Positions 3,630-61,700 of a DNA stretch of 64,000 nt are shown here, piece after piece. How positions within the stretch are numbered: the stretch's first letter is position 1; every line of letters starts with the position of its first letter. The stretch spans positions 1-64,000 of IMG/VR virus record IMGVR_UViG_3300045412_000135; one strand, given 5' to 3'. The notes under the pieces were generated by a model. The model worked only from the letters and a program-made list of their open reading frames with translations, had not been told where the DNA came from and made no database searches. The position numbers and the translations under genes are program-made. Source of the stretch: a virus.

Positions 3630-5794
3630 GCAATTTGACCCACGAACTTCGATAAGATTATCTTATTGATCATCTTATCACTCATATGTTTTTTAAATGC
3701 ATTGGTTAATTGTGCCCTGGAAGAAGGATCTTTCACTGGAATAATTTCAATTTCTTCTTCAGAATCAGGATTCCAAAAATGGTATGAATGTGAATTCTTA
3801 GGAAGGGAAAGTAGATAGAGTTCTTTAAATCCACAATTAGAAATCGCAACACACTTATTCTTCTCCCATTGCTTCTCAAATTTAGCAGGATCGATATCAA
3901 TACTACGGCACATACTACGTACTTCAGATTTACCACAAAGACGAAATCCGAGAAGATTGTAATCAACAATATTAGAAAGATAATCCACAAACTCATTAGT
4001 CATCGAATATGCAGAAATGTTTATCTTACGGGAATACCGAGTTTTTGGATCACGAAGAATACACACACGATCACTACGAATAGGTTGAGGATGTACAGCA
4101 CCCAGACATTTAATAAAAGTATCATATGAAGGATGGCAAGCTTCACCGTCAGAGAGATAAACCACATTAACTTTCTGGACCATTTCTTCACTTTTAAATT
4201 TATCGACAACCTGAGGGGTAATCAGGATAGTTTCTACTAGAGGGGTGCCAGCCAAAGAGATATGGTTATAATAACCATGAGCTTTACGAAATCCTTCACA
4301 ATTTACATAGAAGTTTTCCATCATTGTATCAAAAGTCTGAGCATTCATCTTGGAAGAGAAAAACTCTAGCAAACGAAAACATTTATCAATATGCAAATTA
4401 TTCTGTTTGTTTATGGTAGGAACACCAGGGAAAATGTACTCATTAGTATAACAATCTGAGAAACCATACACACGGAACGGAATAGAAACTTTCTTACAGA
4501 ACCAAATCAGATCATACAGTTGCTTAATCGTATTCACCATGCTATTCCCCATTGAACCAGACCAATCAAGAAAGAACACGAGTCCATGATTCTTACCATC
4601 GGGAATAGTGGTCACTTTTTTGAAAACATCATCACTGAATTTGTAAGTGTGAAGACGTGCAGTATCAAGAACACCGGTGCGAGAAGTTGATGCACGGGAA
4701 TACTGATCTGCTGCTTTCTTACATTCAAACTCCTTGACCAGATAATTAACAGATTTTATACTTTCTTTCTTGTACTCACGATAAGATTTTACACATTGCA
4801 TACGTAGTTCTTGAAATCCAGGAAAACCTTTGACTGAATTACCGTCTTTAGACACATATTGAATAAGACCTTGATTGATTTCGGTAAAAGGTACAATAAC
4901 ATTATTTAAATTAACTTGAGGAATATTAATATAGATATAATCTTCGGCAGTTTTATCAACAAGAGATTTCTGTTTATTAGCAAGAGATTGATAGGTCTCA
5001 GATTTTAGTTCATCAATATGATTATCCTTGTCACCTTTTAGACCATTGGCAGTTTCAGCGATAGGTTTTTTCTCTTCACCTTCACCTTCACTATCATGGG
5101 ATTGACCCCCAGCAGGCAAATTTTCCTCACTCTGCTTCTGAGTCTGCTCCTGAGTCTGCTCCTGAGTCTGCTCCTGAGTCTGCCCCGTTGCAGGGCTAGG
5201 TTGAACAGATTCATTTGCAGGAACTTCAGTCTTTTCTTGTTGCTTTTGCTTCAGCATTTCAACCAGTTCCCGACAGAGTTGAACTACATCCTCAAAAGAT
5301 TCAGTATCAGCAGCACGATTGACCCACTGCAGTTCATCACGTTCGAAATGAACAAGAGTACGATTACCGATCACACCAACCTTGAAGTGAATATTAATAC
5401 GGTCGATCAAAGACATCTTGGAAATATCTTTACCCTCTAGATCAAAAAAGTTCTTATTATCGAGTTCGGTATAACCGAAAAAGAAGGATTTAGCTAAACC
5501 AGGATACTGACGTTTCATCAGTTTCTCCACACGAACGTCCTCAATCACGTTCAGAACGTCCTTTGGCACCTGCAAAAGGTAGTCTGCATAGTCCAGAGGG
5601 GTATAGAGAGCATGACCAACTTCATGACCCACCAGCATGTCATAGACCCTGCTACTCACGTTTTTCCAAATCGGCAAACACAGGATACGGTTTTGAACAT
5701 CAAAGTAGGCAGTCTCTACAGCACGGTGCTCAATGTTTAGGTTTTCGGTTGCGAGCAGTTTGGCAAGAGTGCCTTTGACTTCGGTGTTGATCAT
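3626..5794 (-). CDS. Metallopeptidase-motif and von Willebrand A domain protein, partner of the CobS-like ATPase
   Basis: 722 residues. The N-terminal domain has a zinc-peptidase motif HEVGH at 57-61 and, about 25 residues on, NVIEDVRVE (82-90), which could supply the third ligand. A charged Gln/Glu linker follows (about 185-280) with a QEQT repeat. The C-terminal domain is a vWA fold with the MIDAS motif DWSGS at 410-414, then LAGTP and LSDGE further on. Proteins with this order pair with MoxR or CobS ATPases (CobT-like); the phage copy sits immediately upstream of that ATPase. I infer a protein-remodelling or proteolytic machine; the substrate is unknown. The ATG at 5794 has no clear Shine-Dalgarno. 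A sigma70-type promoter lies just upstream. Confidence 0.9.
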   Translation of the reverse strand: MINTEVKGTLAKLLATENLNIEHRAVETAYFDVQNRILCLPIWKNVSSRVYDMLVGHEVGHALYTPLDYADYLLQVPKDVLNVIEDVRVEKLMKRQYPGLAKSFFFGYTELDNKNFFDLEGKDISKMSLIDRINIHFKVGVIGNRTLVHFERDELQWVNRAADTESFEDVVQLCRELVEMLKQKQQEKTEVPANESVQPSPATGQTQEQTQEQTQEQTQKQSEENLPAGGQSHDSEGEGEEKKPIAETANGLKGDKDNHIDELKSETYQSLANKQKSLVDKTAEDYIYINIPQVNLNNVIVPFTEINQGLIQYVSKDGNSVKGFPGFQELRMQCVKSYREYKKESIKSVNYLVKEFECKKAADQYSRASTSRTGVLDTARLHTYKFSDDVFKKVTTIPDGKNHGLVFFLDWSGSMGNSMVNTIKQLYDLIWFCKKVSIPFRVYGFSDCYTNEYIFPGVPTINKQNNLHIDKCFRLLEFFSSKMNAQTFDTMMENFYVNCEGFRKAHGYYNHISLAGTPLVETILITPQVVDKFKSEEMVQKVNVVYLSDGEACHPSYDTFIKCLGAVHPQPIRSDRVCILRDPKTRYSRKINISAYSMTNEFVDYLSNIVDYNLLGFRLCGKSEVRSMCRSIDIDPAKFEKQWEKNKCVAISNCGFKELYLLSLPKNSHSYHFWNPDSEEEIEIIPVKDPSSRAQLTNAFKKHMSDKMINKIILSKFVGQIA
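5138..5185 (-). repeat. Four 12-bp tandem repeats in the vWA gene linker
   Basis: Plus-strand unit ctgagtctgctc occurs three times exactly (5138, 5150, 5162) and once with one change (5174). On the coding strand it spells Gln-Glu-Gln-Thr four times in the disordered linker between the peptidase-like and vWA domains. The copy number could vary by slippage without shifting the frame. Confidence 0.92.
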
Positions 5795-8960: not shown

Positions 8961-9428
8961 TCAATAACGATAAGTGTATTCGATGTTAGATTTAATTTGA
9001 TTATAAGAATTATTAAAATCTTCACCATCAGAAGTGAATACTTCCTCATAACCGGATTTTTCAATCAATTTATCTTTGATATCCATTTGACGTTTTTCTT
9101 TTGCAATTCTACGAAGAAAAGCATAATAAACAATCTGAGTGAAATATGCAAATGGATTATTTGACTTTTCTGGATCAAAATTATCTACATATTGAATGCA
9201 ATTTTCTATACCATCGCAAATCATATCATCCCTATACATATAATTAATAAAATTTGGACGATAAGATAGATGAGTAGCAATTTTTAAAAAGCACTCGCCA
9301 ATGTAATTATTAACTCTGGGTTTTGATATCCCTTCATTTTTTGCCTCGGCAACACTTTTCCTATATTCCATAAGAGCACGTAGGAACTTTTTATTATCTA
9401 AGTAGTGTTGTTTCTTTTTTTGTATCAT
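8961..9428 (-). CDS. 55: Late-transcription sigma factor (gp55)
   Basis: 155 residues, somewhat shorter than T4 gp55 (185). The core segment with NPFAYFTQIVYYAFLRRI is the sigma region 2-like part conserved in T4-type late sigma factors, which recognise the TATAAATA -10 element and bind host RNA polymerase core. Several such motifs occur upstream of structural genes in this window, which fits. The gene has its own sigma70-type promoter with a 17-base spacer, overlapped by an inverted repeat, so its expression before late genes is readable in the sequence. gp47 follows within 2 bases. Confidence 0.94.
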   Translation of the reverse strand: MIQKKKQHYLDNKKFLRALMEYRKSVAEAKNEGISKPRVNNYIGECFLKIATHLSYRPNFINYMYRDDMICDGIENCIQYVDNFDPEKSNNPFAYFTQIVYYAFLRRIAKEKRQMDIKDKLIEKSGYEEVFTSDGEDFNNSYNQIKSNIEYTYRY

Positions 9429-9455
9429 TCCATGTAGAATACATTAAGTGATTGA

Positions 9456-9484
9456 AGTATATCTAATGTTTTAATTATTGTCAA
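9456..9484 (-). promoter_or_regulatory. Sigma70-type promoter for gp55
   Basis: Minus strand TTGACA (9479-9484), 17-base spacer, TATACT (9456-9461), 28 bases before the gp55 ATG. The -35 box lies in one arm of the inverted repeat TTGTCAAG-N10-CTTGACAA (9478-9503). Confidence 0.85.
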
Positions 9485-9496
9485 GCCATAACAAAC

Positions 9497-9525
9497 TTGA
9501 CAACAGTTCCATTTGTGTGTATAAT
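9497..9525 (+). promoter_or_regulatory. Consensus sigma70 promoter on the plus strand, divergent from gp55
   Basis: Plus strand TTGACA (9497-9502), exactly 17 bases, TATAAT (9520-9525): a full-consensus promoter. It faces away from gp55 and towards the 3' ends of the 144-residue gene and uvsW, both on the minus strand. A transcript from about 9532 would be antisense to them. No convincing plus-strand ORF or terminator follows. It shares the inverted repeat with the gp55 promoter. Confidence 0.7.
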
Positions 9526-9552
9526 AACTCTGTAAGGGTTCAAAGATTTTAT

Positions 9553-9987
9553 TTAAAGCCATTTATAAATTTTTTCTAGTTTTTTTCTTGCTTCATCAAC
9601 TGTTGAAAGATATCCCATGTTTGTATCTAACTCTACTTCACTTTCTTTAATAGCATCTTCAATGGTTTTATCTTGATTTGTTTTTTTAATAAACAATTCA
9701 TACATATGAACCATTTCAGTATTCAATCCTCCAATACTAATAATATCTTTTTCATTCAAAATAAAAAAATCTTCATCTGAAAATTGCATCCATTTAGTCA
9801 TGGATAATCCTTTCACAGTTGTTTTACCACTCAATCTTGAAACTACTTGAATTATAACGGGATTACACATGAATACTTGTGTTTCTCCATCATCTTCTAC
9901 TGCAAAACCTTTGGCAATTATTTCTTCACCAGAAATTAGTTTTACAATAAAATGAAACTCTTCATCGTGTCGAATGTATTTAATCAT
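9553..9987 (-). CDS. Sm-like conserved phage protein downstream of uvsW
   Basis: 144 residues. The N-terminal part (FHFIVKLISGEEIIAKGFAV, an acidic DDGET turn, then NPVIIQVV) has the strand pattern of an Sm/Hfq-like barrel and resembles the 95-residue protein at 202-489. A longer middle segment and a charged helical C-terminus (about 105-144) follow. I know of no demonstrated function. It overlaps the uvsW stop by 8 bases, so it is co-translated with the helicase. RNA binding next to an RNA-DNA helicase would make sense but is inference. Its 3' end lies under a possible antisense transcript. Confidence 0.75.
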   Translation of the reverse strand: MIKYIRHDEEFHFIVKLISGEEIIAKGFAVEDDGETQVFMCNPVIIQVVSRLSGKTTVKGLSMTKWMQFSDEDFFILNEKDIISIGGLNTEMVHMYELFIKKTNQDKTIEDAIKESEVELDTNMGYLSTVDEARKKLEKIYKWL

Positions 9988-11455
9988 AAGACTCTTTTAA
10001 ACGTATTTCTATGATTTCATAATCAAATTTTTCTTCATTGTATATTTTAACTCTTTCAACTAAATGATTCAATGTGAAATTTTTCAGATTGTTGTTTGAT
10101 ATATCATCAGCAATATCATAAAGAGTTGCTTGATTTTTATTCTCTCCCTTTCTGAGAATACGGCCTATGGATTGAAGATTACGAACACGCGATTTAGAAG
10201 GTGATGCAAAAATAACGTTATGAAGATTACGAATATTGATTCCAGTAGAAAAAGTTCCATAACTAGCAACAATAATAGCATCTTTTTCTTGTTCACAAAT
10301 TTGACGAGTTTTTTCTCTTTCTTCAGTATCTACTCCACCATGAATAAAGAATACTCTTCTAGTATCACCGACCTTACTATTTATGAGGTCATAAAGTATC
10401 TCCCCATGTTTTTCGACATAAGAGAAGAGTACTAGCGTGTTTCCATCAAGATCTTTACACAAATTACGAATTAATTTATTCCTTCCTGGATGAGAAATAA
10501 TATAATCAATTTCTTCTTGATAAGATTCAAATCGAATAAATTTGTGTTTCAATAAAAGAACTTTAATTTTTAATTTACTTAAATGACCTTCCTTTATCAG
10601 ATCATTTGTTTTAGTTACTTGATTACACTTACCAAAAATACCTTCCAGAACTAACTTGTTTGTGTAGCTTCCATCCAGAGTTCCTGTGAATCCAATACGG
10701 TATTTACAATCATGCAACTTAGTCATGATTCCAGTCAAAGACTTTGCTTTTGCTAAGTGTGCTTCATCAACGATAACAACATCAAATTTACTGAACCACT
10801 TCTTATTCTCTTTGTAGATTGACTGCCAAGTAGTAATTACAACATCCGAATCAATATCATATTTCTCTTTACCTGCATAGATTTTATGACAATAAGCGGA
10901 AGAATTCCAACCATAATCTTCAAAATCCTTATACATTTGTTCTACCAGTGATGTTGTAGGAACAACCAAAAGAATTTTCCTACTAGCATTTACATGGTAT
11001 CGAATGATCGAATAGATCATCAAAGACTTACCTGATGCTGTTGGTGAAAGAAGCAATCTTCGATTATATTTAAGTGCCTCGTAAATTGCTTTGTATTGAT
11101 AGTCTCTTACCTTATGTGGCATACTAAGGGACCTTACAAAACCAACTACACCTTCAGGAGAAACTAAATCATTTATTTCATTTGGATGTCCATAAAATTT
11201 ACATTCTGAATGTTCATAAGTATATCCTCTTTCATTACACCATTCTTCAAGATACTCTACAAGACCACAATATATCTCTCCTGTTCCTGGGGAGTATAAT
11301 CTAATTTTACCATCCCAAAATTTATTTTTAAACTGGGGCATGTATTTTGCGTTTGGAATATCGAAAGTAAAATATTCTGCTAATTCAACATTAATGTGCG
11401 GCTCTGCTTCAATTTTTAGATAAACTTCGTTCTTCTTACGAATCTTAAGATCCAT
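9980..11455 (-). CDS. uvsW: RNA-DNA and recombination helicase UvsW
   Basis: 491 residues, close to T4 UvsW. A superfamily 2 helicase that unwinds R-loops and branch-migrates recombination intermediates, helping the switch from origin-based to recombination-based replication. Visible motifs: the N-terminal domain (1-100), PTASGKS at 138-144, DEAH at 230-233, FTGT at 256-259 and a C-terminal motif VI (SIGRILRKG). uvsY lies 6 bases upstream, the usual cyanophage order. Confidence 0.96.
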   Translation of the reverse strand: MDLKIRKKNEVYLKIEAEPHINVELAEYFTFDIPNAKYMPQFKNKFWDGKIRLYSPGTGEIYCGLVEYLEEWCNERGYTYEHSECKFYGHPNEINDLVSPEGVVGFVRSLSMPHKVRDYQYKAIYEALKYNRRLLLSPTASGKSLMIYSIIRYHVNASRKILLVVPTTSLVEQMYKDFEDYGWNSSAYCHKIYAGKEKYDIDSDVVITTWQSIYKENKKWFSKFDVVIVDEAHLAKAKSLTGIMTKLHDCKYRIGFTGTLDGSYTNKLVLEGIFGKCNQVTKTNDLIKEGHLSKLKIKVLLLKHKFIRFESYQEEIDYIISHPGRNKLIRNLCKDLDGNTLVLFSYVEKHGEILYDLINSKVGDTRRVFFIHGGVDTEEREKTRQICEQEKDAIIVASYGTFSTGINIRNLHNVIFASPSKSRVRNLQSIGRILRKGENKNQATLYDIADDISNNNLKNFTLNHLVERVKIYNEEKFDYEIIEIRLKESYD

Positions 11456-15936: not shown

Positions 15937-17546
15937 AATTCTGCTTTTTTTAAGTCTGCGGGATCTGGTTCTGTACCTTGATCTCCCATTTGTGTAGAAC
16001 CAGTTTCTTCTGGTGGTAATGCATTAGGATCACCTTCCATCGCAGGGTCTATCATTGCATTTGGATCGGCAATTTTTCCGTTTTCTATTTCTTCTTTGAT
16101 TTGATTATCAATTTCTTTTAACTCTTCATCTGTTTGCTTAAGAACATTACGACGAATTTGCTCAATAGAGAAATATTTACCAACAAAAGGATCCATGGTT
16201 GCAACGAGATTCATTCTCTCGTTCATCATCTCCATGTTCTTGACTTCATTGAAATAGTTGTCTGCAATGAAGTCATATTGAATATGATTCTTAATCTTAT
16301 CCCAATCCTCAAGAGTAATTACTCCTTTAAGTAAAAGTTGAGTCTTAAGAATATCTTGGAAAAGATCCGAGAAACGTTTGCGGAGACGATTGACAAATTT
16401 CTGAAACTTGAGTTCGTCTCTTGTAATTTCAGTTGAACGACCGATATTAAATGTAGTTTCTGTTTCTAATCTCGAAGAAGGAACATTAAGTGCTTTGTAT
16501 AATTTCTTTTGAAAGTACTTAACATCTTCAAGTTCTCCAAGATTCTGACCACCAGGAAGAGTAGTGATTTCTGTTCCTCTACCACCTTCACGACGAGGAA
16601 GCCAGAAATCTTCAAGCATACTCATGAACTTACGATCATCTTTAATCTCACCAGTATTGGCGTCATATACTAACTTGTTTCTATAGCGAGCCATTACTTC
16701 ACGAAGATATTGCTCTGCCTTGATCTTAGGTAGATTACCAACATCAATGTAGAAAATTCTACGTTCTGGTGCGCGAGATAAACGATAGATAACCAGCGAG
16801 TCTTCAATCATTCTCAACTGATTAACTGCTTTAATTGCTTTGTGTAGATGCGAAAGCACCATATTTTTATTCATATCAAAAATTCCAGAATGCACATAGG
16901 TGATTGAATCTGGAGCAATTTTGATGCCTTGAACATCTCCGGTTTTTAATCCTTTTCCGTTATAGATAAAGTATTCAGCAGTTCTTTGCATGAATGCTTC
17001 TTGTGGATCATTAGGATTTATTCTTATTGGTCTGTTTTCTACTTCGATAATTTTGCGAATTTTTCTCGGATCAATATAACGCAATTCGAGTATTCCGTTG
17101 CTTGGATCTTTCGTATCAATTACTTTATGATAAAATACTCTTCCATCTACATACCAACGACGAAAGATCTCATATGATTTATTTTCAAAATCTAAAAGTT
17201 CTAATACATAATCAAACTCTTCACGAATTAGTTTTTTAACTTTTTCACTAACATTTTTAATATTTTCTAAATTAATTACAATAGGAACATCATTATAATT
17301 TCCACAAATAGTTTCATTCACAATATCATCTACAGCAGAATCGCACTCTGGTTGTAGAATCATATCCCTATAGCGTTGAATTAACTCCCATTCATTTTTG
17401 ACAGTTCCATCAATATCAACATAATAACCATAATGCCCGCCAGCAGAAATGGGAGTTGCCCCATCTTGATTATCTTTTTGAACAAAAGAAGGCCCTTTCG
17501 GAACCTTCTTTGCTCTTTCTATAGAGTATCCAAATAATTGTGACAT
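15933..17546 (-). CDS. 20: Portal vertex protein (gp20)
   Basis: 537 residues, against 524 in T4. Forms the dodecameric portal for DNA entry and tail attachment and nucleates prohead assembly. The segments EWELIQRYRDMILQPECDSAVDDIVNE, RYIDPRKIRKI and TTLPGGQNLGELEDVKYF are the recognisable gp20 core, and the C-terminal 50 residues are acidic and disordered (PNALPPEETGS). The gene sits between gp19 and gp21 as in T4 and has its own late motif. Confidence 0.96.
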   Translation of the reverse strand: MSQLFGYSIERAKKVPKGPSFVQKDNQDGATPISAGGHYGYYVDIDGTVKNEWELIQRYRDMILQPECDSAVDDIVNETICGNYNDVPIVINLENIKNVSEKVKKLIREEFDYVLELLDFENKSYEIFRRWYVDGRVFYHKVIDTKDPSNGILELRYIDPRKIRKIIEVENRPIRINPNDPQEAFMQRTAEYFIYNGKGLKTGDVQGIKIAPDSITYVHSGIFDMNKNMVLSHLHKAIKAVNQLRMIEDSLVIYRLSRAPERRIFYIDVGNLPKIKAEQYLREVMARYRNKLVYDANTGEIKDDRKFMSMLEDFWLPRREGGRGTEITTLPGGQNLGELEDVKYFQKKLYKALNVPSSRLETETTFNIGRSTEITRDELKFQKFVNRLRKRFSDLFQDILKTQLLLKGVITLEDWDKIKNHIQYDFIADNYFNEVKNMEMMNERMNLVATMDPFVGKYFSIEQIRRNVLKQTDEELKEIDNQIKEEIENGKIADPNAMIDPAMEGDPNALPPEETGSTQMGDQGTEPDPADLKKAEF

Positions 17547-46700: not shown

Positions 46701-49700
46701 CTATTGCTGGTCAAATGTTACTGCATTCGTATCCCACTTAACCTCAGTATCATCAAATTTGAAACCAAATTCTGGTGGAACATTAGGTACTGAAGTATCA
46801 ATTTCAATTATAGGATAAGAATACCCAGATCCTCCATCAATAACTTGAACTCCAGAAATACCAACAAGTGCTTTTGCTTGAGCATCAAAGCCTGTAGATG
46901 AGTTGAATGATATATTTGGTCTAGAAGTATATCCAGATCCACCAGATGTCAGTTGTACAGAAGTTACTCTTCCAGTTATTACAGATACTAAAGCCTCTGC
47001 ATTTCTCCCGAGAACAGATCCAAGATAATCAAATGTAATTAATGAATTAGATGACTCAATAATAGCAACTTCTCTCTCTTCTGTTTCCCCCTCAATTACT
47101 AATCTATCGGTAACTTCAATTGGAGGAACAACTTCAGATGCAATAACATCAACATCGGATCCAATGTAAGAGAATGCAACAAAAGTTGATCCTGCTCTTG
47201 GAACTTCTGCAAAAATAATTCTAGATCCAACAAGTTGATATGCAACTCCTGGTTCTTGAATAACACCATTTAATGAAATAATAATATTATTTTCGGGTTT
47301 AATAGTAGTTGAAGAAACGCCTTCTGTAATGGTAAGAGAATAGAAAGAATCATTCAATTTTAGATTAAATGTAGATCTCAATGAATCAAATTGGAAACTA
47401 ATATCATCTAATTGACGAAGCTTACCAAGATATACAGCATGGAAAGAAGATCCCAACGATGGTGCCTCACTAAATTGAATAGTATCATTAAATACATTAA
47501 ATGATATATCTGGAGGTTGTAAAATTCCATTAACAAATACCAGTAAGTAGCCTTCAATATCTGGTGCATAAAATTCACCATTATTTCGTGTTATTCTAAA
47601 AGTATCTTGAACGCCATTAAATCCAACAAAACTTCGTTTAATTCTTCCTTCAATTTTAACTACATTTATAATTCCCGCTTTAAAATTTGATGATGAGATC
47701 AATTGGGAATATGGAGATATTGTTCCGACTACATTAGTTAAATAATATCTATATCCAATTCCACTAGGAACAATCTTTTCAATAGATGCATAAGCAAAAC
47801 TATTATTAGATGCAAATAACTGAACTGTACCTGTTCCTAGTGGGAAAGGATTGTTCTCTTCAAATACACTAACCGTGTCTCCAACATTGAATGTACCTTG
47901 AGGATTTACGATCCAGAGATCAACTTCTAAATCGCCAGAAACAACCTCAACATTTACAATTGTTGCAGATTTTACTCCTGGAATTAATCCATCAGCATCT
48001 TGCAAAAGATCGCCTACTAAAAATTGTCTTCCAAAGGTAGTGTCTGCATAAGATACTCTCAATTTAGTTATAGTTGTTGTTTTTATGACACTATTAAGAT
48101 CAGGAACAGTTCCCTCAGCATCAATAACATCAATATAATAACTACTAATGGAAGAATATACTTTTCTCGTTTCCTTAAATTGACCAATCAATCCTTCGGT
48201 ATCTAGAGTTAATTTTGAATTTGTTGTTGATATAATAGGCGCATTATTATAATAATAATTTAGTACAGTAAATTCTGCATCAGAAAACAATCCATAAACA
48301 AATACATTTGATTCCCAAGAACCGATTACATATTTTAATTGCAGTCTATTTCCAATAGAAGTTATCGTCGCCGTATAACCATTATCATCGATTAATATGT
48401 TTCCTACTGCAAATGTCCCTGAAGTAATTTGTACATCTAAATCAGTATAATATTCAGACTCTTCTGTAGATATAATTGCAGCAACTTTTGTTCCTTGACC
48501 TTGTACTTGTATTGAAGTGTTATTTGTAAATGTTAGATTGGGATCATCATAAACAATTCTAAATTTAGTATATAGATCGGAAATAGTTCCTCTATTATAA
48601 GTAATAGATTCAATTTCAGCATAATTATTTGAACTAGAACCGTATATATAGTCTCCAATATTTGCTTCGCCAGATACAGGAGTATATGAACTTCTTGTTG
48701 GATATGAAATTGTTGGAATATCAATTAATGTATAACCAACAATTTGATTAATATTAATATATTCTGAATTATTTAATGTACCAAGAAGTATATTCATTCT
48801 CTCATCTATAAATTCCTCAATAGTTGTTAACTGGGTTCCCGTAATAGAAATATCACCGTCAGTATATGCATATTGACCAGCAGCTGGTGAAGGAACAACT
48901 AAAGTCTCCGCAATCGCAGATTTAATAAATGTTGTAACTTGATTATAAGCATAGATACTCTGAATTAATTCACCATCAAGTGATGTGATAGTTCCTGTTA
49001 TTGCATCGATATATGTCAATGTAGCATCAACGATTCCTTTATTTCCACCTGTCAATAAATCATAAACAATAGCATCAATAATGTAATCAATATCTCTTAG
49101 ACATTTTGCATTTCCGCCGGGAACACTAAATCCAGGAAAATTAATTAAAGTTTTCTGAACGGTTTCATTTTTAATATATGATTTATTAAATAGCAATAAC
49201 TTAGCAGCGTCTCGGTAAAGCTGAGTAGTATTATCTTCACTTTGTCTAATAGCATGATTCATATTCCCATTTGTAACTGCTGTAGTTAAGATTGAGAATA
49301 ATGTATTAATTGAACTTCTAACATCTGCACAAGAACTTGCACTTGTGTTTGATCCAGTAGCAGGGTCTGCAGTAATTGTTAGATCTTTAACTTGATTCCT
49401 TATTGTATATCCTCCCAAGTTAACTGTTACATTAGTAACAATTTCATTTGCAATATTCTTTGCTTCATTAAATGCATAGTTCGGCGGTGTGCCTTCACCA
49501 CCTAAGTAACTATTAAATGTATAAATTTCTGAATTATCCCAGGTACGAGCATTTCCTCCATTCCTTAGATCATAAATGATTCCATCTAATATTATGACAA
49601 TATCATCCTTACAGTCTTGATTTCCATTTGGAAAAGTAAATCCGGGATAGAATGTCTGCATTCTACCAACTGCAACATCTGCAATTAAGTATTTGTTAGA

Positions 49701-52700
49701 GTTAATCAAATTAGATGCATCATAATATCTTGAGTATTTTTCATTTCTTTCTGGAATTAAAATACCTACAGCAAGATTAAATAACGTATCAATTGCCTGC
49801 TTTACTCTCTCACAATTTCCTCCATATGTGCCATCATCAGGAGTGATGGTATTATCCGTTGTTCTTACAGCAGTAGATTCAAATTCACCAGTTAGTGGTG
49901 TATAAGATGTATTGGTTGTACCATTAATAATCCAATTATCAATAGCATATTGGCATAAAATATTTACTCTTTCAAATGCAATAGCAGTAGGTAAAATTTC
50001 ATCTTTTACATGAGTTATATTTCCACCTTCTTCTACAACATAATATTTCATAGCATCAATTATATTTACATTTCCGCCCGTTAATAGATCACTAATAATT
50101 GCAGGTAAAATAAAGTCTTCAATATCTCTTTCACATCTTTCTGAACTCCCAGTTGGATAAGTAAAAGCATTATTTTGAACTCCATTTAGAGTAAATCTTG
50201 CCCACTGTTCTATGTATCCTGTAGATTCTTGTGCAATAAACTTTTTATTAAACCAAATGCGATCAGCAGCATCCCTAAATACTTGCCCAGTAGGAGCAAG
50301 TATATCGTTTACAAGATTCCAAAGAGTATCAATCGCAGATTTAACATTTGCACAAACTGGTGAAGAAGTATCAGCAGTTATGTTTATTGGTAAATATGGT
50401 ATCTTATTAGTATATGTTGGAGTAGTACTTAATGTTCCATCAACTGCATTTTGACAAAGAACACTCATTTCTTTATGAGCAAATAAACTTTGTAAAAGTT
50501 GCAATCTAATAAATTTAACAACACCGTTTCCATCTAAGTAAACTCTTGCAGCTCCAGTTGTATTATAAGTACCGCCGTATTCAAGATCAGTAGCTACAGC
50601 ATCAAGTAATAAAGATAGATCTAATTTACAACGATTAGTTCCATCAAGTGAAGTTGAATCATCTCCAGGAATTAATAAATCTGTATATCTTGCCTTCATT
50701 CTTCCAACGGCTTCGTCAATAATATATGTTTGATTTTGTCTAATTAAATTAGCAGCATCCCTAAAGCGATGTTGTGTTGATGCATCAATAAATGGAGCAA
50801 TAATATACTTGTTAGTAGTATTGACCTGTCTAGTAATTATTGGTACCTCAATGTATTGAGATACTTTAGCACTTATCGCACCCGAAGAGATAGTTTCTTC
50901 GGAAGTAAAAGTGCCTGTTCTAGATCCTAAATATAAGAATTTTAGTGCATAATTGACACCGATAATTGTTGCTGTTGCACCAGAAGTTACTCCAGTAACG
51001 ATTTGACCTTGATTAAAATTCCCTCCAGACAAAGTATGATAACTTAATTTTTTAATATATAGAGTTTCATTTTCAGAGAAATGATTATTTTGATTTGTAT
51101 AATTAATTCTAACACTCTGAACAAGATCATCAGCAGCTACAGCACTTGGTGATCCTCCATCATCAGAAATGTTTGTATTTCCATGTATTAATAATACTGT
51201 ATTAATATTATTAATAAATGGAGTTGCGGAAGGTGTAAATGTTGCAGTATATCTTACTATATTAGATACCCTTATTTCATCCAAATATCCATTAAATTGA
51301 TATTGATTTACATAAGTATCATCATATCCAATCATTAACCCTGAAGCGTTTGCCGATGCAGAGGAAATTCCAGTATGAACTAACGTTCCATTTACAAACG
51401 ATTTAATTGTTGATCCTGTTCTAGACCAAGCAACATGAGTCCATTGTCCTACTTGTACAGTAGGTCCCGTGGATTGTTGATTAATCGTATCCCCATCATA
51501 TGAAATTAAATATAATGTACTTCCACTCTTACTAAGACCCCAATAGAAATTTGGACCTCCAGTTAAAGAAAATACCATAGAGTATGTTCCTGCTGGGAGA
51601 GATGGTAGATATAACCATGTCTCTAATGTATAATTGCCAAAATTAAAATCGGATGCATTTGTAACTGTTAGATAATCTCCATCTCCATCAAAATATACGG
51701 ATCCTCCATCAAATTTAGATTCGGTTGTAGATGCAGTAACATTTCCAGCGGTAACAATAGTTTTTGCTGTTCTAAAATTATACGCATAATCCATTAAAAT
51801 ATTTTCTGCATTTTCATACGCAACAAAATTAATTTCATATTTTTCAGAATCATCATCCATATTAGTAACTTCTATTAAAGATTTACTAATATCATCAACA
51901 ACTGCATTTGGTTTTAATGGATTAATTATTCTAGTGAAAAGTAGTCCTGTAAAAGTGCTTGGATCACTAATAGAAATTGAAGACACAAATTGATTGGGGT
52001 TAAAAGGATCAATGTATGGCGCTATACCAATAACTTTTGCGATTATTTCAGATCCAGCACTATAAATAAAGTCATTCAATTTAATATTAAGTAGGCCAGA
52101 TGGATTTCTGTACGTACCTGAAGTTTTACTAATAACAATTTTATTAGTCGGAACATCATTTGTTAAATTAATTTCTTCAATTACTGCAGTATCTCCAGCA
52201 ACATTTGTAATTGATTCTTGGAATCTGAATATGTTTTGATTTGTAACGATAACTTGACTTGACAATGTAGCATTCAATCCTGTAGCTGCAACTATTAAAA
52301 CTTCATCAATTTGGAATCCAGTGCCGCTAATATTAAATACAGTAATTATATTAGTAGTTGATTTAATGACAATTGCGGTTGTATTTGATGTAAGACCTCT
52401 AATTGTATTACCTAGTTCTGGTAAAATACCAGATGTATTTCTAATAGTTAAATCTGTAGATGTTAAAAATTGTACCGTTACTGTTGCATAACTAATTTTT
52501 GTTGGCGCAGGAGGTGGTTCTGAAAAAACAATATTACCCTGCTGAATTTCGAATGCAGATTTTGGTGGTTGTACTATTCCATTAATAGTAATTAAAAATT
52601 GACTTGCATCTGCTACAACTGGACTTCCATCAATTGTTATTGGGAATGAAATTCTTTCTCCATCAAATAAATTAGCGATATCATCTAATCTCTGAACAAC

Positions 52701-55700
52701 AGAGGTCAAAATTTCTTCGGATGATGTCAATCTCTTATTTCTAAATAATATTTGTGTGTTATCAAAATCAGAATAGATTGGTTCAACAATTGCATAATTT
52801 TTAATAACGTCAACTACAGAGCTTTCAATTAAATTAACACTCTTGCTCAATTCAAAATCTGTCTTATCGGACAATCCTTTGCCGCCGCCTTCAAGAGCAA
52901 TTTCTCCAAATACTTTAAATCCAGCAGGATGAACATTATCAATAACCGTATTTCTCCACATTTCAATTGAAACTGGCGATTTAATATTGTATGAGAATTG
53001 TTGATATAAGTAAGAGTCTTGAATTTTTTGGACGATTTCACTTGGTTTGCCAACATCATCCAAGAATTTACCTACAGTATTTGTAATTGAATTAACTTCA
53101 AGAACTCCTTTTGCAATACTAATGTTTTCAATGGTTCCATTTGCTTTTGAAATTAAACCCGTAACAGATTGTCCTACTTCAAATGTACCTTGAACATCAA
53201 TGAGTTTTAATAAACGTGGTCCCGTTTGCCAACCCTCATTTACCGAAACATATCCAGTCGCAGATGAATTATTAATTGATTCGCCCTGAAATACTAATTC
53301 TTTGGATAAAAATCTTCCAGTTTCTACGATTGCTTCTGCCGATCCACCAAATGATGATGTCAAAATAATTTGTCTTCCAGTTCCACCATTAATAAATGTA
53401 ATATAATTACCACTAATTGCATCTTGTTGTGTTAATGCAATTCTTAATTGATCATCTTGCAATCCATTACTTTGACCGCTAATTGCATAGTAAATTTGTG
53501 TTGGTGAAAGATATCCAAATGATGTAAGAGGAAATTCTGGACGCGGGCCAAGACTTTCATTTTGGAATTGTACTTCAACGGCATTTGTAATTCCATGAGG
53601 GAAAGCAAATTGGAAAAGCCCCAAGTCTAAATTAACTACGTAAGTAAATGAAGATTTTAACGTTATAATTGGTGGAGTAGAATATCCTGTTCCTGGATTT
53701 TTAACTAAAATGTCACTAATTCTTCCGTTCTTGATAATTGCTTCCGCAGATGCTCCTGTTCCACCACCACCAGTAATCAAAACCTCTGGAGGAGTAGTAT
53801 ATCCAGTACCAGGATCAATAATTTTAATAGAGCTCAATATACTAGTATTGCTTAACTGAACATTGACTGGGAATGTAATTTCTGGACGAAGAGTATAATC
53901 ATGAGTATAATTAAAACCAAAATTATTATTTTTTAATTTTTTAATTTTACCAATATTGTCTCCACGAGTAAAGATTGCTGCCCCGCTCCCTTTTGGGGGA
54001 ATTACAACATTTAAAACTGCTCCAGATCCAGTAAGTAGAGGACCTAGAATACCGTCAATTCCATCCACATCAATAGAAGCATTTGTATATCCTTTACCTG
54101 GATCGGTCACAGTAACCTCAACAATTTGTCCAGCAGGATCGGTCGTTCCATCTACTATCAAAGATACTTTTCCTCCAGCACCATCACCCAAAATAGGAAC
54201 ACCAAAATATTCACCAGCCTCATATTCTGTTCCTGGTTCCACTATTTCAACTCTTTCAATTTTTCTGCTCGATTCAATATCCGAAATTAATGGTAGTTTT
54301 TTATAAAAACCTCCACCATTAACTAATTTAATTTTTGCAATTGGACCTACAGTTTTTGTTGATGTTGTTGAATAATAAGATGTCAAAACATTTGCTGTTT
54401 TTTCTGGTTCAAATGGTATAATAAATTTAAATTTATTTGGACCTTGAGTAATACTTCCTCCATCTAAATCAGTAACTGTATATGTTCCGATATATGGACT
54501 TGTAATTACATCAATATAAGAAGAGGTATTTACGGGTCCATCTTCACCTAAGTTTGATGGATCTGCGTAGTATGTAATGTTAGAAGCATCTTCTGTTATT
54601 TTAAATGATATGAATGGAGAGTTTCCTGGTTCATCAAATCCTGGTGTTCCCTTTCGAGTAATATTTTTGAATGTATATTCAATTTTATATAAATTATCTC
54701 TATAGAAAGACAAATAATGACCCTGCATACTAGTATGAGCAGTATCAAATGTATATTGTTGTCCGTAAATAAATTTGAATATTGGATTTTTTACAAATAT
54801 CTTTAAAGTTGAACTTCCTAAAGATGATGTTGGCACATCTCTAAGTTTCAATAAAAATTCTTTTTTCGAAATAATTGAATAAATATCAAAAGTTCCGATC
54901 AAAGGACTATATGTTGGATTAGTGGATGCAAATACAACATTCTCATTTGTTAAATAATGGGAAGTTGTAGATCTAATGAACATCAATTCTGTATTTAAAA
55001 TCGTCGTCAAGGTTAATACTTTAGTTAAATTTGTAACCAAGCTAATTTGAGTAACTGCTGTTAATCCAGTTATGACTGCAAGAGTTTTTGTCTGGTTAAA
55101 TGATATTTGATTGCTGTTAATTGTAACTACTGATCCCACAACATACGTAGATCCAGATAAAGTAGCATCTATTCTAATTAGATAATCATCATCCGAATAA
55201 TCTTTGAATTTTGCTGATACCGATCCTGGAATATTAAACTCAAATGTTCCTGGAGTAGTTGCATTAACATTTGCGAATGTATATGCTTTAATTTCATTAA
55301 TAAAAAAATCTGATGCTTCCAAAGAACCTGTGTTTAATAAAAAAGTACCAGTAATATCACCAACAGAAATGGTATTATTAACTAAATCTTTCTCCAAAAT
55401 TCTTGCTACGGCAACAGTGGCACCCAAAGAATTTTTTTGTTTTATAATAGTATTGGTATTAAAATCAAAACTTTGATTAATCGTTAATTTCTTAACATTA
55501 TCTGCCTTTTCAACATTAAAATAATTGAAAAAGAATTTATTTAATACTGTACTACTAACTTTTACCTTAGATGCACCAACAGCTGGGATGGTAGCAGTTC
55601 TACTAGACCACAAATCATAATAGTTTGTAATAGTTGCGTAATTAATACCCAATCCCGAAGAAACGATATTGAAATCTAAAATTTGGAATCCCTCAGAACC

Positions 55701-58700
55701 AAGAATATAATCTGTTTGGATAGTTGCAACATCTTGTTCGGAAGATGTCAAACTATAAGAAGATCTATTTAAAATTATATTATTATTTGGTAATGTTATA
55801 TTACCCGTTCTTACAGTATCTAGATTATTATCTGTTTTAAATACAAATCCATTTGGAGTGCTATAATTGACTATACCATGAGCAGTAGATGGTAAAACAC
55901 CAGAAGTATTATAGTTGCTTAGACGTAACTCATCCACTCTCATAGGATTAGAAAAAGAACCGGTGGTGCTTCCAAAATCAATTTGAGTTGGATTAATATT
56001 GGTAGAACTTGTAACCTGTAAATATTGAGTGCCGTTAACATATACCGTATAAGTTGCAATTGTATTAGCAAATGATTTTGTTAGTGCAATATGCGTATAT
56101 CCAGCATTCATTAATGTAGTGACATCAGTTTGAGTACTCGAAGATGGAGCAGAGCCATTTATTTGTGCTCTAATTTTTCCGTAGTTTGCTCCAGTTGTAC
56201 TATTGATTTCAATAATTAAAGTGTCAGTATTACTAGTAATATTGATCAAATGTGGATCTTTTGTAGTAGTTGTTGAAGTATATTTGAACCAACCCTCTAA
56301 AGTCCAAGATGAAGAAGTGATAGTTGTAGTACCACTCATTTTAGCGCTAAGTGGAATATCATATGCATTAGTGCCGTATTTTGGATCTGTAACTATAGTT
56401 ACAGATCCAACAGTAACTAAACTAGAAACTCTTCCAGTTGCATCATTATAAGATGATTCAGCATTAAATAAAAACTGAGTTCTATTTTCATATAACTGTC
56501 CGATAATGATTGGATCTCCAGAACTGTCCGAACACACTGAAGATATTTCATATCCTTTCTCATATAATTTTGTAGTTGCGGGCCCAGCGATCTTAGATGA
56601 ATTTTTTATTGATCCATCAAAATTAAATTTAATGATACCTATTGTTTTAACTGAATCTGAATTTATATAAGTGTATCCTGCTGTTATTTCTCCAAAAACA
56701 TCTATAGAACATTTTGCCGGCACGATGGAGAAATTACCAGTATCAATTGTATTAAATTTACTTTTTAGTATATCTCCAGTATTGTCCAGTCTCATAAAAT
56801 GTAATATCTTTCTATCACCTGTTGCAATTACTTCTGCACAGGAAGTAATGTAAATTTGATCATATTCATCAATAATTGCTGAAACGTCTGTAAATTTATA
56901 ACCACTATAAGAATATCTTTTAGTCCATTCAACTAATAACCTATTTCCAGACATGTATAGTTTGCAAACTAGAATATCTGTGTCTGAAGTTGTACCAATT
57001 AAATATACAATATTTTTACTATCAATTAATACATTATTAATTTTTTCACTTTGATTAACAGATGTAATTTTTCTTTTGGTTATGACATCACCATCAGAAT
57101 TTAATAAAATTAAAAATCCATCATAGATACTAACTGTATTAGTATTTGTATAACCAGCAACAAGAATATTATCTCCCATACATGATATAGAAGTAACAAT
57201 ATCTGATCTTGTGATACCACTAATACCTGCCAGTTCTTTTTGCCAGGTTAAAGTTGCTTCTGATCCAGTAACATTCTCCGTATAACGTGCAATTAAAACA
57301 TCCGGATTGTATGCTGCGTTCAAAGATGGGTTTGGTTTAGTTCTACCAACAACATATACTTTTGATTCCTTCTTACAAACAGCAACGAATTCACAGTAAT
57401 TATTTGGTGTTGCTAGCGATGTTGATGATAAAGATTTTGTATAATAAACTGTACCGTCAGTACTTAATTTTTGAATTACCCCAATAGTATTTAAATCGGA
57501 ATTTTGAGAATAACCAACTGCATAAATTGATTTGTCGGTATGTACATAACCACCTAAAAACTTAACGTTATTTGCAGGAGAATACTGTTGAGTAAAGAAA
57601 TAATCTGCTCGCCTATCTATTTGTGGATGACTTATCCTAATGATAGGATTTTCCTCATATCCAAGTCCTGAGTTAATAATTTCAAATTTTTCAATAGTAC
57701 CATTTGACGTTACAATTGGTTTTATACTTGCAAATTGACCACTATCTGATTCGATTTGAACCGTTGGTCCGGTATCTGTAGAATATCCCGTTCCAATACT
57801 ATCTATTGTTAATTTTTCAATGCCAGATAATGATTCGACTAAAATGGTCTTGCTACTTGGCTCCATTTGTGGAGTTGTACCTATGATTACTTTGTCACCA
57901 ACCAAAAGATTATGGGGTTCTGAAGTAGTTACAACTGCTTTGAACTGATCTCCTATAGAGTCGTATTCATATGTATATGCAGTAATAGTTTTACCTTGAA
58001 TTTCCGAAATACGTGCTGAAGCACCATAACCAGAGGTTCCAGTGTCATCAAATACTAATCTGTCATTAACTTGATAGTTATCACCTGTATTTTCAATAAA
58101 GAAATCGGTTAGTTTAGCATCTTCAAATTTAGTTGTTGTTTCAACTTCAATATCAACTTTTGATGATATTTCAATTTTTGGAAAATAGTCAAAAATTTCT
58201 AATTTTTGCTCTTCAAAAATAATATTTGGGTCATCTATCTCATCTTGTGTTATAATACCATCTTTATTTTCATCTTCAATTTCAAATGCAAGAAAATCTC
58301 CGTTTTCTAATGTTAATGCATTTGTAGATTCATTTGGTACTCTTTCAACATCAATATCGACATTTTCAAATGGAGTTCTATAACGAACTACACCTGTTGG
58401 AATATTTGATTGTGTTGCAAATTGATTTAAATTCCAAGTTTCAGGATCGGAATAATAAGATGGACCTATCGCATATGGGAATTTAGCCGCGCCCGCAGAA
58501 TCTATTGTAATAAAATATGCATATATGCCATTTGGAAATTCTGGAGTCTTGCAAAATCTACCATTATATTCGTCCAAATAAACAGCCAAACTATTAAAAG
58601 TATATTGATAATCTTCTATAAATGAACCTGCTGGATATTGGGATAATAATGGTCCTTCAATTCTAACTGGGAAGGGATTAGTATTTTCATTATAAACTAA

Positions 58701-61700
58701 ATTAGTTTTTAAGACATAACTACTTTGAATAGGGACAATACTACTGGATAGCAAAGTTGGATCCTGCAATCCATATGGTCCGTAAATTGGATTACCATCA
58801 AAAGCCCAACCGATTATGGGGGAGTGTTTAATAATAGTATTTTCTACTAATTCACCATCATCTGAAATAATTAAACTATCACCTAAAACATATCTCATTC
58901 GTTTTGGGTTACCAATATGAGCATATTCTCCACCAAATTGATTATTAAATCCTTCAAAAACTGAACCTTCAGCACTATCAAAAACAACTTGTGTTTTTAG
59001 GTTAAAAGTCCATTCGAAAATTTCAGATTTAAATTCTGCTCCTTCTCCAATTGATTCTAATCTAATTTGAGTTGTGCCTGAATTATATCCAATACCTTTG
59101 TTTATAATTGTAATTGATGTTACTCTCCCTAGTTCAGATCCTTCAGTTGAAATAGTTGCCTTTGCAATTGCTCCATACCCATCTCCAGTAATCGTTACTT
59201 TAGGTGCAGTTGTATAACCAAATCCAGCAGAAATAATAGCAACAGAAATAATTCTTCCGTTGCTGACATATGCTTGGGCAGCTGCCCCCTCACCACTGCT
59301 AATTTTTATGTCTGGATTTGAGGTGTAACTTGATCCTGAGTTTGTTACTTTAATTTCTTGTATTGGTCCTCTAACAACTGCTTTAGCTAAAGCGCCAGCA
59401 CCTCCACCGCCTGTAATTGCAACAATTGGTTCTGATATATAACCTTGACCAGCAGTATTTACCAAAATTTTTGTAACAATTCCATTAGTTATAATTGCTG
59501 TTCCTGTAGCACCAACACCAGTTTCTCCATATACCGAGACCAATGGAGACTCTGTATATCCACTTCCTCCAGAAATAACTTCATAATCTACAACAGATCC
59601 ATTTACAACAACAACTCCTTCTGCTCCAGATCCTCCACCACCAGTAAATGTAGCAATTGGTGGGATCGCAGCATCATAATTTTTACCCGAATTTAAAATT
59701 TTTACATTTGTTACTGGTCCAAAGGGATAGGTTGTTTCTGATTTATAATTCCATAAACTAACACCATTAACCAAACTACCTATTGGTCCTGGATATGTTT
59801 CGGTTTTAACTGAAATTGTATTTGGTATTCTTGGAAATTTATATAATTTTCTTTGATTTCCTGGTAAAAGTGCTGTTCCCAAGAAAGGACCAATTTTATA
59901 ATTAGGAATTCCAGATGCAGCAATATAAATGTGAGTATTATTCAAGAAAGAATTTTGAATATTTGATGGAAATTTGCTAATAGCAGTGTTAATCGATGTT
60001 GAATCACTTTTACCTGTGTTTAAGTCGATTGACAATAAAATATTTCCTTGGGCATTTTGGATAGCTGGTTGAGGAAGAGCATATTTAAATACCGTTGCAC
60101 TTTCTCTACTAATTACTAAAAATTTACCGTTATAAACAATTGGATTGCCTCCATAAATTGTAAATTGATCTCCAACTAATAAACCATGAGATTCAGTACA
60201 GGTAACTGTGGCAGTTTGATTGTTTAAACCACCATATGTAATTGTAGTGACCTTAAGTAATTTTTTAACATTATACAACCAACTCGTGACTAATTGAGAT
60301 TCATCAGTGGTCCCAAGTTTTGAAATTGTTAATTTATCACCACTCAAATAATACTGTCCATTATCAAGAAGGGTGGTTTTATTAGCATCAACAATTCCAA
60401 AAATGCTCAATACTACTTCTTTAGAAGTTCCTTTATTAGCATAGACATAAAAATTAGATGTTACTGTGGAACCTGCATCCCACTGTTGTGCAACAGTATC
60501 ATTAATACCTCTTGTACATTCAATAAATTGTGTAAGAGTTTTTTCTTTATATCTAATAGTTTCTGAACTAATAACAAGTTCCCCATTTCTTTCTGGCCAA
60601 CCAATAGTGGAATCTACATTAATAATTAAATCTTCAGATTCAAGTCCTTCAACTAATTTTGTTGCATATGGAATAATAAAATAACCATCCAGACTTTCTT
60701 CCGATATAATTAATTCATATACATCATAATTTTCTGTTTGTATAGCAATATAATTTTCAATTAAAGCTCTTGCATACCCAATATTAGAATCAATACTATC
60801 TTCGAATTGTTCTAACAAAGAATCTACAAGATTTTCAGGATCTCCTGATATCAATTGACACCTAATAACAGTATCAACAGACCAACTTGATGCAGATGGT
60901 TTTATAATCTGGTCTTTTGGATAAGTTACATCAATATTAGTTCCATAAAGCAACTTAAACAAATAGGATATTGAAAAAACTGTGCCTTTGGAAGCATAAA
61001 AATCTTTAATACTTGAAAGTACATTTTTAATATCAATACTAGACAAATCTGGAGTTGGTAATCCAGGAAGATGTTGATTTATTATTTTTTCTAGTATTTT
61101 TTTCAAAAACAATCCATCTAAACTAATAACTTTACTTCCATTTACATGTTGGGCAGCAACTGATGAAGTTTCGTCCTTAAAAATTATATTATTATCTGTA
61201 TCGTAATCTACAACACCACTTACTCCTCTAGAGCAATGTACAAATTCTGATTTTTGATATCCTGTTCCTGCACTAATAATATTATATCCTGTTACCTCAT
61301 CTTCTCCAATTGTTGCCGAAGCTTTGGCACCCTCTGCAGTCGAGATATAAATTTTAGGTGGATATTGTTTTGAATATCCTTCGCCAAAATTTGTGATATT
61401 AATATCAATAATTTCTCCATTAAAAATAGATGCCTGAGCCGTAGCACCAGTACCTCCAGAAAAAATACCTAAATTATCTTTTCTATCATCAACAATATAA
61501 ACACTAGGAACATTAGTGTATCCAAATCCACCACTTAATAACTCAATACCAATAACACGTCCAAAGTCATCAACTTGAACATCTAAGATTTGAGCTCCCG
61601 TTGGTTGTATCACTTTAACTCTTGGTGTAACAGTATATCCTCTACCAGGAACTGTAATATTTACACTAATCAATTTACCATCATTGTTTAATACGCCTTT

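Follow-up and report, generated by a model that had tools for sequence, protein, structure and literature searches.

What is the role of a perfect sigma70-type promoter that points onto a strand without genes, next to the gene of a late sigma factor? This question is raised by the virus record IMG/VR IMGVR_UViG_3300045412_000135 (70,574 bases), of which positions 1-64,000 form the window analysed here. The original prediction placed two back-to-back promoters in the gap upstream of gp55, TTGACA-17-TATACT reading on the minus strand into gp55 and TTGACA-17-TATAAT reading on the plus strand into the 3′ end of an Sm-like gene, and both the sequence and our scans bear this out. The locus consists of the following features:

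8961-9428, minus strand: gp55, late sigma factor (phrog_234, 2e-69)
9484-9456, minus strand: gp55 sense promoter TTGACA-17-TATACT, with TTGACA at 9484-9479 and TATACT at 9461-9456; predicted start at about 9449
9497-9525, plus strand: antisense promoter TTGACA-17-TATAAT, matching the consensus at 12 of 12 positions, with TTGACA at 9497-9502 and TATAAT at 9520-9525
9553-9987, minus strand: Sm-like protein gene (Sm_like PF16243, 2.3e-27; phrog_471)
9980-11455, minus strand: uvsW helicase gene (UvsW_N PF21241), antisense to any read-through RNA

The names Sm-like, gp55 and uvsW, which had been assigned beforehand, agree with the matches to PF16243, phrog_234 and PF21241. Relatives of the Sm-like gene bear the annotation 'methylamine utilization', and a domain search also found UvsY (PF11056) among the neighbouring genes. 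As had been claimed, the protein genes are confined to the minus strand (32 of 32 open reading frames of at least 120 aa); one of these strand-biased frames, at 46701-63101, runs for 5466 aa, and a short in-frame repeat (TQEQTQEQ) lies at 5038-5440 in a 722-aa frame, where frames are open on both strands. The promoter pair sits between the Sm-like stop (9553) and the gp55 start (9428), both genes being on the minus strand. The antisense promoter faces the overlapping Sm-like gene on the opposite strand, so that its product would be a cis-antisense RNA. It is the sole TTGACA-N15-19-TATAAT in the whole 70,574-base record, and dinucleotide shuffles predict 0.15 such 12 of 12 sites per 64 kb. Seven sites in the window reach at least 11 of 12, and only the two in the Sm-like/gp55 gap lie outside open reading frames of at least 120 aa. 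The claim that other plus-strand TTGACA sites have no matching -10 box stands with one small exception, at 17398, where CATAAT is found at 16 nt (11 of 12) inside a minus-strand open reading frame. On the minus strand, positions 9561-9568 (TATAAATG, in the 3′ end of the Sm-like gene) resemble the T4-type late promoter TATAAATA, upstream of gp55.

We then asked how widely the antisense promoter is kept. The upstream regions of 80 gp55 loci from IMG/VR with 73-88% gp55 identity were read, and the antisense promoter was scored as present at 10 or more of 12 positions. It was found at 59 of the 80 loci, the other 21, which are more distant, all having gaps of 61-83 nt, and among the loci that keep it the identity of the Sm-like protein goes down to about 36%. 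For a second, more distant set an approximate gp55-like sequence served as query, and gp55 was relocated in the contigs with the proteins of the window and its relatives. Here 66 of 74 distinct upstream regions have the antisense promoter, compared to 4% of mononucleotide shuffles. For part of this set the closest named relatives are SAR11 phages, and the Pelagibacter phages Mosig and HTVC008M have an antisense promoter at gp55 that matches at 12 of 12 positions; in the Methylophilales phage Melnitz none above threshold was found at gp55. When 11 cultured cyanophage genomes were inspected, TTGACA-17-TAnAnT was present at gp55 in ten (Syn9, S-SM1, S-PM2d, S-RSM4, S-CREM1, S-RIM2, ACG-2014d, P-SSM2, P-SSM4 and P-HM1), the one without an antisense promoter there being S-CRM01.

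The gp55 sense promoter is likewise kept in relatives. No decay of the plus-strand -10 box beside a retained minus-strand box was seen in close relatives; the closest, freshwater-type loci (L001-L028) keep both. The sigma70-type hexamers TTGACA and TATAAT, 16-18 nt apart, are conserved by selection, and because of this conservation across relatives a functional antisense promoter is well supported. The lineages that lack it at gp55 (L029-L034, L037, L039, L041, G006, G007 and S-CRM01, among others) have no good copy elsewhere either, as if the whole system had been lost or replaced; their records are partial except for that of S-CRM01.

The arrangement of the two promoters relative to each other is less rigid. 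Each holds its own spacing while the distance between them drifts: in the freshwater clade 1-25 bp separate the -35 boxes, which in marine lineages are interleaved (-7, -16), and the predicted starts lie 53-94 bp apart across lineages and 82 bp apart in the window. Among the loci L001-L080 the start-to-start distances cluster near 54, 63, 72, 82 and 92 bp, with some at 75-77 bp, in steps of about one helical turn. At these distances the promoters are near enough for mutual interference, and a polymerase at one should hinder the other. Judging from usual sigma70 footprints, two bound polymerases would overlap, which makes mutual exclusion plausible. Of the proposed antisense RNA or mutually exclusive promoter switch, conservation supports the functional antisense promoter, and the exclusion is plausible on geometrical grounds.

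The two -35 boxes had also been described as the arms of a palindrome, and the repeat is indeed present:

9478-9503, no strand assigned: inverted repeat TTGTCAAG-N10-CTTGACAA, which holds both -35 boxes

Since perfect 8-bp inverted repeats are common (139 in the window), this one is not significant in the window sequence alone. As a conserved core the palindrome is ruled out, because its arms change and the spacing varies from -16 to +25. In freshwater relatives the repeat is mostly 9-14 bp long and has a T-rich tail in the sense direction, and spacer positions 2-5 of the two promoters agree within a locus in 72% of cases versus 37% after permutation. There the two -35 regions together look like a sense-direction terminator for the uvsW/Sm operon. 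The repeat of the window, with just 8 bp and a tail (TAATTAAAA) without a T run, is weak as a terminator.

What the original prediction had missed is a strongly conserved dyad that covers the antisense start site:

9526-9540, plus strand: start-site dyad block AACTCTGTAAGGGTT, directly after the antisense -10 box; proposed operator

With the start placed by convention about 7 nt after the -10 box, T-1, G+1 and T+2 are predicted at 9531-9533, and TGT or TGC stands where the start is expected in 139 of 140 antisense loci. Around this near-invariant TG the block forms an imperfect dyad. Its arms are wholly different between lineages (e.g. AACGG-TGT-CCGTT, GGTCTATGTAGACC and AGGCATGTGCCT) and yet mutually complementary. 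In 25 clustered blocks the halves form 3.64 pairs versus 2.66 in permuted halves (0 of 5,000 permutations), and poor dyads occur in a few lineages (P-HM1, ACG-2014d and L448). Searches of shuffled sequences for TAATAACTCTGTAAGGGTTCA with up to three mismatches gave no chance matches. A small open reading frame in the gap (45 aa, minus strand, 9425-9562) was ruled out as its explanation, because the length differences of the gap between relatives are not multiples of three, whereas promoter and block remain fixed.

The pattern of promoter plus block occurs in at least 120 IMG/VR stretches; among the matches listed about three quarters are antisense at gp55 and most of the rest lie elsewhere. 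When complete cyanophage genomes were scanned with a matrix made from the pattern matches, they had one to three copies of the element at 32-59 bits and everything else scored 10 bits or less. Syn9 has two copies only, one of them antisense at gp55. Further copies face the tRNA/cpeT/CP12 region in S-SM1, S-PM2d, S-RSM4 and S-CREM1, and, in Syn9 and S-SM1, a series of small genes that precedes a baseplate gene. The same class was also seen upstream of cpeT/CP12/tRNA and small-gene clusters in the contigs L084, L116, L143 and L152, and in loci of the L116 type the AAGGG of the block is placed where a ribosome-binding site would be. In three other contigs (L157, L167 and L174) the element is antisense to other large, apparently structural genes, so its antisense use is not limited to gp55.

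Copies within one genome share their variant of the block: AAACC...GGTT at both copies of P-SSM4, AACAATGTCAGAT at both of ACG-2014d and AACCATGT at all three of S-SM1. The edit distance between blocks is 1.64 within genomes compared to 3.94 with genomes permuted (0 of 20,000). The 17-nt spacers showed no within-genome agreement in the same permutation (P 0.77), which argues against recent copying. The within-genome agreement and the dyad suggest regulation. In Mosig and HTVC008M no second copy of the block was found beside the one at gp55; the argument from within-genome agreement therefore covers the cyanophages, and sequence-specific control in trans is supported only in these.

The extent of the RNA that would start at this promoter depends on where it ends:

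9532-9687, plus strand: predicted antisense RNA, about 156 nt if it ends at the T7 run at 9681-9687; it could run on
9653-9687, plus strand: where relatives have the antisense terminator; the window keeps the T7 run, with a weak hairpin (-1.4 kcal/mol)

When the antisense direction was scanned, seven freshwater lineages (L004, L008, L016, L018, L020, L021 and S-CREM1) proved to have an intrinsic terminator at +114 to +121, within the Sm-like gene and with an energy of -11 to -16 kcal/mol. Synonymous-codon shuffles (60 each) beat none of six of these terminators, and that of L020 was beaten by 5%. The stems covary, with 83.7% of cells paired versus 75.5% after shuffling (0 of 500) and two-sided changes in 11 cells, in an alignment that was picked around the terminator hairpin and so favours it. 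Taken over the full 125 sequences, the signal is modest: 14% of them reach p ≤0.05. The terminator is absent from several freshwater relatives and is not general in marine lineages; a general antisense terminator was thus ruled out in favour of one that belongs largely to the freshwater clade. For part of this clade a discrete transcript of about 150 nt is likely; for the window it is uncertain, because the hairpin of the window is weak and the overall signal modest. Among Rfam families, only tRNA matched in the window.

We judge it an even call that the phage controls this locus as a divergent pair, whose antisense member yields an RNA directed at the Sm-like mRNA and also competes with the promoter of gp55. 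In this scheme, for which we infer transcription, timing, interference and the regulator, the minus-strand promoter would give the gp55 mRNA. The plus-strand promoter, sigma70-type and strong, would belong to a rare class that is specific to phages (one to three copies per cyanophage genome) and bears a dyad on the start. Its RNA would be complementary to the 3′ end of the Sm-like gene; in freshwater relatives it would stop near 150 nt, and in the window it may continue into uvsW. A polymerase at one promoter would hinder the other, and a putative phage-encoded dimeric regulator, bound to the dyad, would switch the antisense promoter off (or on). By shifting the balance of the uvsW/Sm operon against gp55, the regulator would time late transcription. 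The antisense promoter is almost certainly functional and probably either yields an antisense RNA or contributes to the timing of the late switch. What speaks against the divergent pair, however, is that S-CRM01 and some marine lineages do without the antisense promoter, and that the antisense terminator of the window is weak (-1.4).

Part of this model would change if the dyad were selected as a hairpin, in the non-template DNA strand at initiation or in the RNA, the rest remaining as in the divergent pair. We regard this as doubtful, though worth serious consideration: the arms change and stay complementary around the near-invariant TGT, and Mosig and HTVC008M have single copies, but with a start at the conserved G the left arm would not be transcribed, and structure alone does not need the shared arm sequence of copies at different loci of one genome. 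Both this agreement and the complementarity of the arms are consistent with an operator for a coevolving dimer, whereas a hairpin accounts for the complementarity only. It is unlikely that a polymerase on the antisense promoter acts merely as a roadblock or placeholder, restraining the gp55 promoter and uvsW/Sm read-through without a useful RNA. The adjacent or interleaved -35 boxes, the dyad on the start site and the many lineages without an antisense terminator would fit such a role; if no RNA were made, however, one could hardly account for the freshwater terminators and their covarying stems.

T4 has R-loop origins, and UvsW and UvsY act on such structures. An RNA that stays paired to the DNA could prime phage replication here in a similar way, and the gene-free strand, the one near-universal copy and the neighbours uvsW, uvsY and gp47 are consistent with this. 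We nevertheless consider it quite unlikely, as further copies drive sense gene clusters and the extremes of detrended GC skew lie off the element (Syn9 minimum at 101,695 versus element at 123,733; S-SM1 98,465 versus 119,352), so that GC skew gave no support for an origin at the element in cultured cyanophage genomes such as these two. It has been put forward for cyanophages that antisense transcription protects phage mRNA from RNase E (PMC10976474). As the sole role here this is improbable, since it leaves unexplained the start-site dyad, the same class at sense clusters, the short freshwater RNA and the presence in SAR11 phages. Hardly any credence is left for the view that AT-rich DNA has given rise to a bidirectional promoter by chance or incidentally: locally, weak matches of the sigma70 kind abound (79 seen versus 72 expected in 20 kb), but conservation with fixed geometry across divergent lineages contradicts this reading and rules it out.

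Returning to the divergent pair, the promoters PR and PRM of phage lambda are also back-to-back sigma70 promoters about 82 bp apart, the distance seen in the window, and share with this locus an operator, here proposed, and an interference, here expected. In contrast to lambda, the phages studied here are lytic, one promoter is antisense instead of coding, the dyad lies on one start only, and operator and repressor are putative. The closest confirmed antisense RNA in T4-like cyanophages is CfrI of cyanophage S-PM2, an RNA of about 225 nt that was detected experimentally at the psbA/homing endonuclease locus (PMC2984593, PMC12197685). In both cases a T4-like cyanophage has, or would have, an RNA complementary to the 3′ end of one of its genes, but the loci differ and the RNA at gp55 is predicted, whereas CfrI was detected. 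Host-like sigma70 promoters have been described in T4-like cyanophages (PMC2984593). The promoters at gp55 have the same -35/-10 consensus and would be expected to use unmodified host polymerase; the start-site block and its within-genome agreement are additional here. The Syn9 transcriptome of Doron et al. 2016 reportedly revealed a novel early regulatory element as well as host-like middle promoters. That early element is likewise phage-specific and found on promoters of a T4-like cyanophage; the block at gp55 may be the same element, in which case its novelty would be lower. No published description of the gp55-locus element was found in the literature searched, the Syn9 transcriptome lying outside this comparison.

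To our knowledge, T4-like marine phages lack MotA and AsiA, and the order of early, middle and late transcription in these phages is still poorly explained. An element beside the late sigma gene, present from freshwater Synechococcus-type to SAR11 phages, offers a concrete target for mutation, and from its lineage-specific dyads one can predict a regulator and look for it. Besides CfrI, gp55 would be the second conserved antisense locus in T4-like marine phages. Only tentatively do we extend this to a family-wide module of the Kyanoviridae, in which an antisense promoter whose start carries a lineage-specific dyad, read by a putative coevolving phage regulator, would time the late sigma factor; in cyanophages this regulator would control tRNA/metabolic and small-gene clusters as well. 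If true, such a module would be a lytic-phage clock with specificity groups like those of immunity repressors.
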